Source: Alistipes sp. Marseille-P5061 | Lineage (GTDB): Bacteria > Bacteroidota > Bacteroidia > Bacteroidales > Rikenellaceae | Assembly: GCF_900290115.1 (NCBI RefSeq) | Contig: NZ_LT985748.1 | Coordinates: 377,120 to 441,119 of the forward strand | Direction of reading: 5' to 3' | Length of the DNA stretch: 64,000 nucleotides | Shown: piece after piece, positions 26,300-27,787 of the stretch | Numbering within the stretch: the first letter of the stretch is position 1 | How the letters are laid out: each line of letters begins with the position of its first letter | Notes under the pieces: model-generated | The model's database searches: none | Seen by the model: only the letters and a program-made list of their open reading frames with translations | What the model was told of the DNA's origin: nothing | Made by a program: the position numbers and the translations under genes

Positions 26300-26307
26300 T
26301 ATCTTTG
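26300..26307 (+). promoter_or_regulatory. Predicted -7 box of the Met leader and metY-metX-hom operon
   Basis: TATCTTTG lies 21 bp before the leader-peptide ATG. The -33 position has TGG rather than TTG. Confidence 0.65.
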
Positions 26308-26328
26308 TCAACAAACAAGAGAAAAACC

Positions 26329-26421
26329 ATGCGTACGAACCTTACGACCGGCAGCGCACTCCGAATGCGCTCGATGATGATGCACTCGATGTGCATGTTC
26401 CGCCGACGGTGCCGGGGGTAG
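26329..26421 (+). CDS. Methionine-rich leader peptide (attenuator sensor)
   Basis: A 30-codon frame contains LRMRSMMMHSMCMF. There are six Met codons besides the start, all within 33 bases (26365-26397), including three in a row. It lies just after a promoter box, before an intrinsic terminator, and upstream of three genes of the methionine branch. This is the layout of a leader-peptide attenuator that senses charged tRNA-Met. The tail is Arg-rich (RRRCRG) because its bases also form the antiterminator arm. It is read as a separate short frame; an in-frame start further upstream (26218) would lie before the promoter. The peptide probably has no other function. Confidence 0.85.
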   Translation: MRTNLTTGSALRMRSMMMHSMCMFRRRCRG

Positions 26422-26461
26422 GTTGTTCGCATATCCATATGAACGATAACATCCGGCCCCG
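26407..26461 (+). promoter_or_regulatory. Putative antiterminator pairing of the Met attenuator
   Basis: Bases 26407-26416 (CGGTGCCGGG) can pair with 26452-26461 (TCCGGCCCCG) in nine of ten positions, with one T-C mismatch and one G-T pair. The right arm overlaps the terminator 5' arm. The left arm starts 10 nt after the last Met codon and ends just before the leader stop. A ribosome stalled at Met codons leaves it free, whereas one at the stop codon covers it. Confidence 0.65.
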
Positions 26462-26481
26462 AAAAGGCCGGATATTTTTTT
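26451..26481 (+). terminator. Attenuator terminator upstream of metY
   Basis: ATCCGGCC (26451-26458) pairs with GGCCGGAT (26466-26473), with a 7-nt loop, followed by A and seven T. It lies 23 bp before the metY start, with no other gene needing it. Confidence 0.87.
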
Positions 26482-26503
26482 GCAAACACAAAAACGACAC
26501 GCC

Positions 26504-27787
26504 ATGTCCAAGCAAAACTACCGATTCGAAACCCTGCAGGTGCACGCCGGCCAACGGCCTGACCCGACGACGGGAGCCTGCGCCCTGCCCATCTACCAGA
26601 CCTCCTCCTACGTCTTCGACAGCGCAGCGCAGGGAGCAGCCCGCTTTGCGCTGAAGGAGGAGGGCCACATCTACACCCGCCTGAGCAACCCCACCACCGA
26701 GGTCTTCGAGCGGCGCATGGCCGCACTCGAGGGGGGAACCGATGCCGTGGCGGCCGCGTCGGGCATGGCGGCGCAGTACCTCGCCCTGGCCAATCTGGCG
26801 GAGGTGGGCGACAGCATCGTCAGCACGTCGTTCCTCTACGGCGGCACCTTCAGCCAGTTCAAACATACGCTCTCACGCATGGGCGTCGAGGTGCGCTTCG
26901 CCTCGGGCGACTCGCTGCAGAGCATCGCCTCGCTCATCGACCAGCGTACGAAGGCCATCTATCTGGAGACCATCGGCAACCCCGAATTCAACATTCCGGA
27001 TTTCGAGCCGATTGCCGAGCTGGCCCACCGCCACGGCATCGCGCTGGTGGTCGACAACACCTTCGGCGCCGGAGGCTACCTCTGCCGGCCCATCGAGTGG
27101 GGAGCCAACGTCGTAACGCACTCGGCCACCAAGTGGATAGGGGGCCACGGCACGAGTCTGGGCGGCGTGGTCATCGACGGCGGCAACTTCGACTGGGGCA
27201 ACGGCCGCTACCCGGCGCTGAGCGAGCCCTCGGAGGGGTATCACGGCTACAACTTCTGGCGCGAATGCGGACCGAAGGCCTTCGCCGTGCGGACGCGCTG
27301 CGAGGGGCTGCGCGACATCGGCTCCTGCATCAGCCCCTTCAACGCCTTCCTGCTGACGCAAGGGCTGGAGACCCTCTCGCTGCGCGTGCAGCGCTGCGTG
27401 GACAACGCGCTCGAAATCGCCTCGTGGCTGGAGCGCCATCCCAAGGTCGAGCAGGTGAGCTACCCGGGACTCAAGAGCAGCAAATACCACGCGCTTGCTT
27501 GCAAATACCTGCGCAACGGCTTCGGCGGCGTACTGACCTTCCGTGTACGGGGCAATGCGGCGCAGGCGGCGAAAATCGTCGACAACCTCCATCTCATCAG
27601 CCATCTGGCCAACGTCGGCGACACGAAGACGCTGCTGATTCATCCCGCCTCGACCACCCATGCGCAGCTCAACGAGCAGGAGCTCGTCTCCTCGGGCGTC
27701 TATCCCAACCTGCTGCGCCTCTCGCTCGGCATCGAACACGTCGAGGATATCCGCGAAGATTTGAACGAAGCCCTCAAGCACCTCTGA
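26504..27787 (+). CDS. metY: O-acetylhomoserine aminocarboxypropyltransferase (sulfhydrylase)
   Basis: The 427-residue PLP enzyme makes homocysteine from O-acetylhomoserine and sulfide. Motifs are [28 protein letters not shown] at the start, the MGVEV region, [15 protein letters not shown], and [11 protein letters not shown] with the PLP lysine (K210). The extra length and the GGNFDW segment favour MetY over cystathionine gamma-synthase. It is the first enzyme gene after the Met attenuator, and metX starts at its stop codon, so the enzyme and the maker of its substrate are translationally coupled. The start at 26504 was chosen for the conserved N-terminus. Confidence 0.95.

Follow-up and report, generated by a model that had tools for sequence, protein, structure and literature searches.

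Organization of the region upstream of metY

The element described here lies in the window, that is, the whole stretch of 64,000 nucleotides of Alistipes sp. Marseille-P5061 DNA that was analysed. A short Met-rich open reading frame (ORF), preceded by a promoter box and followed by an intrinsic terminator, was found ahead of metY-metX-hom, the genes making homocysteine, the precursor of methionine. The features are listed below.

26300..26307, + strand, promoter box of the Bacteroidetes -7 type, TAnnTTTG (here TATCTTTG), 29 nt 5′ of the leader ATG
26329..26421, + strand, leader ORF MRTNLTTGSALRMRSMMMHSMCMFRRRCRG, ATG at 26329 and TAG at 26419-26421; 30 codons plus the stop codon
26365..26397, + strand, putative regulatory Met codons, starting at 26365, 26374, 26377, 26380, 26389 and 26395; span of 33 bases
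26407..26416, + strand, antiterminator 5′ arm CGGTGCCGGG, with the core GCCGGG at 26411-26416; its end lies 2 nt 5′ of the stop codon
26451..26481, + strand, intrinsic terminator, stem 26451-26458/26466-26473, loop of 7, then ATTTTTTT to 26481
26452..26461, + strand, antiterminator 3′ arm TCCGGCCCCG, shared with the terminator 5′ arm
26504..27787, + strand, metY, O-acetylhomoserine sulfhydrylase (TIGR01326, 631.7 bits, above the cut-off)
27787..28800, + strand, metX, probable homoserine O-acetyltransferase (best model TIGR01392, E 8.9e-101, below the curated cut-off)
28813..30012, + strand, hom, homoserine dehydrogenase (subfamily model NF004976, E 3.3e-88, above the cut-off)

An initial annotation of this DNA had proposed the -7 box, a 30-codon leader with six internal Met codons in 33 bases and an intrinsic terminator before metY. 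The box was indeed present, the length of the leader and the span of its Met codons matched, and the terminator was recovered as a hairpin at 26451-26473 followed by a U tract. The same annotation had assigned the downstream genes to the homoserine-to-homocysteine branch, which agrees with the three models listed above, metX being a probable assignment.

The density of Met codons was compared with that of shuffled sequences. The 323-bp intergenic region was shuffled 3000 times with its dinucleotides preserved; no ATG-started ORF of at most 45 codons carried 6 Met in 11 codons, the maximum being 4. A covariance-model search showed that the element is present as a single copy in the window's genome. 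The TetR-type gene located upstream has its own terminator, consisting of the inverted repeat acagcgttcccggacgga/tccgtccgggaacgctgt and a T run, at about 26199-26244. Therefore, the hairpin before metY is not required as the end of that gene.

Distribution of the leader

metY was searched in 151 Alistipes genomes and the upstream regions were compared. Many of these regions show the same design with different peptides, such as MMMVMCMCNRFRRV, MMSGMMMSMRSDLRRV and MMMRMMCMRNRYGRV, each followed by a stop codon. A covariance model built from 17 leaders gave 24 strong matches in the 151 genomes, 23 of them directly upstream of metY. Using a second model on 149 genomes from the family to which genome G289 belongs, 12 strong matches were obtained, one directly before metX (L208) and the others before metY. 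Altogether, 35 distinct homologues were collected in two Bacteroidales families and 34 lie before metY, metX or metY-metX-hom. The remaining one (L058, genome G060) is located before a deletion scar of the metY-metX-hom operon. In this scar, at about 1501-2170, the start of metY is fused to the end of hom and the Met leader is intact. Where sequence room allows, the class A loci, to which this type of leader belongs, retain metY-metX-hom. In 22 of 25 leaders, the -7 box was found 26-59 nt ahead of the ATG.

About 85,000 species were also scanned with an exact pattern that specified both arms and the terminator but did not ask for an ORF. This gave 25 matches, 21 in Alistipes (A. montrealensis among them), one in a Porphyromonadaceae bacterium and three unrelated. 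None of the three matches outside Bacteroidales (L124, L129, L133) contains a Met frame; they are chance matches. The inspected covariance-model matches scoring below about 41 bits (L059-L061, L066-L072, L221, L223) were ordinary terminators with no Met frame; another weak match, L222, carries a Thr leader in its place. Homologues lacking a Met-rich frame, which the initial annotation regarded as contrary to an attenuator, were not found among the Bacteroidales loci carrying the paired arms and the terminator. A variant leader, MAYISSSSYSVPFPQEMRLMMMSMMIMWFH followed by a stop codon, is found upstream of metY at L214 (genome G779); its stop codon precedes the antiterminator arm.

Coding signature and methionine enrichment

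Leaders were aligned with a codon-unaware program and the phase of the gaps was examined. With 25 leaders, gaps within the ORF were multiples of 3 in 48 of 48 cases, as compared to 6 of 115 after the stop codon. With 35 leaders, the corresponding values were 55 of 57 and 6 of 70; gaps common to relatives are not independent events, though the contrast is still very large. In the 35 leaders, Met accounts for 189 of 349 residues (54%) in the stretch of ten codons that closes with the last Met, as compared to 22 of 477 residues (4.6%) further upstream. Alignment of homologous loci had been suggested in the initial annotation as a check; the Met runs are kept and the flanking codons differ. Judged from sequence comparison, the leader ORF is a coding sequence under selection.

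A short motif was also observed near the start of the ORF. Most class A leaders have ACATAC (Thr-Tyr) as codons 6-7; its distance from the start codon is constant and the neighbouring codons vary. In the window, codons 6-7 (26344-26349) deviate from this motif and read CTTACG.

Terminator and antiterminator helices

An alternative pairing of 26407-26416 with 26452-26461, nine of ten positions, had been put forward in the initial annotation. We obtained the same count, one of the nine pairs being G-U. Covariation was then counted in both helices. For the terminator, 20 doubly changed cells were found in 5 pairs and none of 500 shuffles reached as high a value, a count that is favoured by positioning of the 3′ arm by best pairing. 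For the antiterminator, 97.7% of the cells are paired within Alistipes and the helix is invariant, so that covariation is uninformative in this genus. In the second family, the arms were lined up on their CCGG for the count. Here, 8 cells in 3 pairs were changed on both sides; none of 500 shuffles gave as many and slid partners scored much lower. The compensated arms of this family are AGACCGG/CCGGTCT, AAACCGG/CCGGTTT, GGAGCCGG/CCGGCTCC, GGAAGCCG/CGGCTTCC and CGCCGG/CCGGCG. Thus, the covariation that had been named as a check for both helices was found for the terminator and, in the case of the antiterminator, for the second family, with an invariant helix within Alistipes. At two loci, L205 and L207, the terminator hairpin is not followed by a clean U tract.

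We saw no clear conserved protector or pause (1:2) hairpin in the leaders. A candidate third helix, in which RNAalifold paired the last Met/Cys codons with the segment following the stop codon, was not significant on 25 sequences, and naked RNA sequesters the arm in part of the set. A segment resembling TTCGYRTAT is loosely conserved soon after the leader stop codon in both families (about 26424-26434 in the window). It is possibly a polymerase pause site.

Spacing and predicted folding states

The distance from the last Met codon to the CCGG of the arm is 17 nt and that from the start of CCGG to the stop codon is 7 nt in all of the 35 leaders. The pattern used to retrieve this set included the spacing, but the first 18 leaders had been obtained independently of it and all obey the spacing. 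The codons intervening between the last Met codon and the arm vary, and the distance from the stop codon to the terminator ranges from 24 to 41 nt. The leading edge of a ribosome generally extends about 13 nt beyond the A site. On this figure, the arm would be bare with a ribosome waiting at any of the Met codons and covered with one at the stop codon. With a spacing of 17 nt, a ribosome holding the last Met codon in its A site would therefore just clear the arm.

Folding of the nascent chain was calculated just before the terminator 3′ arm is made. With the ribosome on a Met codon, the median probability of the antiterminator was 0.99. With the ribosome at the stop codon, this probability was 0, as a consequence of the assumed footprint. 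With no ribosome, the median was 0.48. The RNA thus forms the antiterminator about half the time when untranslated, in line with the lack of a clear conserved protector helix. In equilibrium folding, most of the stalled states favour the finished terminator over the antiterminator and the states are not separated. Therefore, the switch must be kinetic, like that of known attenuators, with the antiterminator being trapped. Overall, comparison of the homologues establishes the signature of a translated frame, its enrichment in Met, two mutually exclusive helices, their fixed spacing and the association with the operon.

Proposed mechanism and alternative explanations

The locus combines several defining features of an attenuator: a coding short ORF, a cluster of Met codons matching the operon, an intrinsic terminator and a mutually exclusive antiterminator. 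In the proposed mechanism, RNA polymerase would start shortly upstream of the 30-codon leader ORF. With methionyl-tRNA in short supply, the ribosome would stall at the Met codons, which lie 16-46 nt 5′ of the GCCGGG arm, and leave this arm bare. The bare arm would pair with the terminator 5′ arm once the latter is made, the terminator would be blocked and metY-metX-hom would be transcribed. When methionine is plentiful, the ribosome would reach the stop codon and cover the antiterminator arm. The terminator would then form and transcription would end near 26481. Dependence of stalling on charged tRNA-Met, as well as a change of termination in vivo, is what we infer from the sequences.

Other explanations were weighed against this mechanism. 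The leader might sense sulphur amino-acid supply by means of Met and Cys codons together. Of 25 leaders, 13 have Cys at codon -9 and 14 have it at codon -7, and the operon fixes sulphide. However, the Cys positions are swapped for Ser, Val, Arg or other residues in many leaders, the stall zone of several leaders is devoid of Cys, and Cys makes up 60 of 1070 internal residues as compared to 213 for Met, which renders joint sensing unlikely. Conservation of Arg-Val before the stop codon (R in 25/25, V in 22/25) would suit a Met-rich nascent chain acting as an arrest peptide that responds to methionine or SAM itself, rather than as a codon counter. These two codons are however located within the antiterminator arm, so that their conservation is explained at the RNA level. 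The order and number of Met as well as the flanking residues vary, and, given the layout, stalling at high methionine would reverse the logic. An arrest peptide is thus, in our opinion, highly improbable.

The presence of SAM-I riboswitches before metY in other Bacteroidales raises the idea that the element is a metabolite-binding riboswitch, for SAM or another ligand, with an incidental ORF. We give almost no credence to this idea. The sole Rfam match in the window at the gathering score is a tRNA, with no amino-acid leader, SAM riboswitch or T-box, and two class A loci (L005, L017) gave no Rfam match at E≤1, amino-acid leader families included. Moreover, no conserved structured aptamer is seen besides the two exclusive helices, and the gaps preserve the reading frame. 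Finally, motifs of the MMMxMCMC type resemble soft-metal ligands, as would be expected if the ORF encoded a functional Met/Cys-rich metal-binding micropeptide next to an incidental terminator. Such a peptide would hardly account for the constant distance between Met and an RNA arm, for the covariation of this arm with the terminator or for the restriction to methionine genes, and it is equally hard to credit. Overall, the element is very probably a ribosome-mediated transcription attenuator sensing methionine supply. The initial annotation had read it in this way, and the conserved Met runs, the helix covariation and the co-occurrence of the Met frame argue for that reading.

Comparison with known regulatory systems

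Bacteria are usually considered to control methionine through SAM/SAH riboswitches, T-boxes or repressors. In Bacteroidetes/Chlorobi, attenuators have reportedly been predicted for some amino acids, and the thrA leader of Pasteurellales is reported to contain Met codons, so that there is some precedent both for the phylum and for Met codons in a leader. To our knowledge, no dedicated Met leader was among those predictions for the homoserine-to-homocysteine branch. No description of a Met leader peptide was found in the open-access full texts that were searched. The remark in the initial annotation that it knew of no described Met leader peptide in Bacteroidetes stands as regards a dedicated Met leader; as regards the phylum it has to be softened, given the attenuators reportedly predicted there for other amino acids. 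As far as we could find, a dedicated methionine leader with a one-arm, minimal layout is undescribed and looks new.

The classical attenuators of enterobacteria (trp, his, leu, thr, ilv, phe) share with the present element a short ORF rich in codons of the pathway, exclusive helices and a biosynthetic operon. Unlike them, it concerns Met, belongs to Bacteroidota, has its arm on the last codons of the ORF and shows no clear protector or pause hairpin. The SAM-I riboswitch (RF00162) also precedes metY, in other Bacteroidales, but it binds SAM and has no match at the window locus. The metXZ RNA element of beta-proteobacteria likewise consists of an RNA element and a terminator before metX/metZ; it was described, in a study of methionine regulation in Proteobacteria, with alternative RNA folds and a possible pseudoknot, and a leader peptide is not mentioned (PMC4239095). 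In 2010, leader peptides were known only from Proteobacteria and Actinobacteria, to which Firmicutes were added (PMC2965389), and no methionine RNA element was found in Actinobacteria (PMC1262725).

A methionine leader peptide would add a missing amino acid to the list of attenuators and would point to coupled transcription-translation control in gut Bacteroidales. Methionine being also the initiator, starvation would hit both the start of the leader and its elongation, a twist absent from other attenuators.

Probable exchange of metY and relation to SAM-I riboswitches

The metX and hom genes of Alistipes are 75-85% identical to those of the window. The metY genes are either 73-88% or only about 47-53% identical to that of the window, and in a quick metY tree the leader precedes two deep lineages. 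Read most simply, the sequences indicate that the leader stayed in place and that a distant homologue replaced the metY behind it.

SAM-I riboswitches were found at 8 of 29 sampled metY loci of other Bacteroidales families. Within Alistipes, one of the 151 genomes has SAM-I, and there not at metY; a covariance-model search found no RF00162 in the window's genome. The leader stands in the place that SAM-I has in some other Bacteroidales and was apparently retained across the metY exchange. We lean towards the view that a dedicated Met attenuator of minimal layout occupies the position of SAM-I at metY and was kept through the exchange of metY, so that sensing moved from SAM to tRNA-Met charging. 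This would make a compact case of the same gene under a SAM sensor in some lineages and under a tRNA-charging sensor in others.

Other leaders

The initial annotation has to be amended in a further respect: a second, different Met-rich leader (class B) precedes metY in other Alistipes (L182-L201, L027, L030). Class B peptides end in MRMCR. The leaders carry a near-invariant ATGCGAATGTGCCGnTAGGCAC, and their stop codon lies within a GTGCC/GGCAC hairpin. A second hairpin, 3′ to the first, often has a TACG loop and its stem covaries in 7 pairs. Seven class B loci gave no Rfam match at E≤1, and no clean terminator was seen.

A Thr/Ile-rich leader, MTIQHTTSIIMGSTSMSTITTTALYD followed by a stop codon, was observed on the reverse complement near 1479 at L222 (genome G374), before a thrA-like aspartokinase. 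The terminator 5′ arm, AACCGGCTTC, pairs at ten of ten positions, two of them G-U, with GAAGTTGGTT at the leader stop codon. In terms of predicted pairing, the arrangement near the stop codon is that of the Met leader, here for another amino acid. A possible Met/Cys leader, MNATTLHTPLSAPATMPMCMCCCGNHS, was also observed before metY at L172 (genome G192), in another Bacteroidales family.
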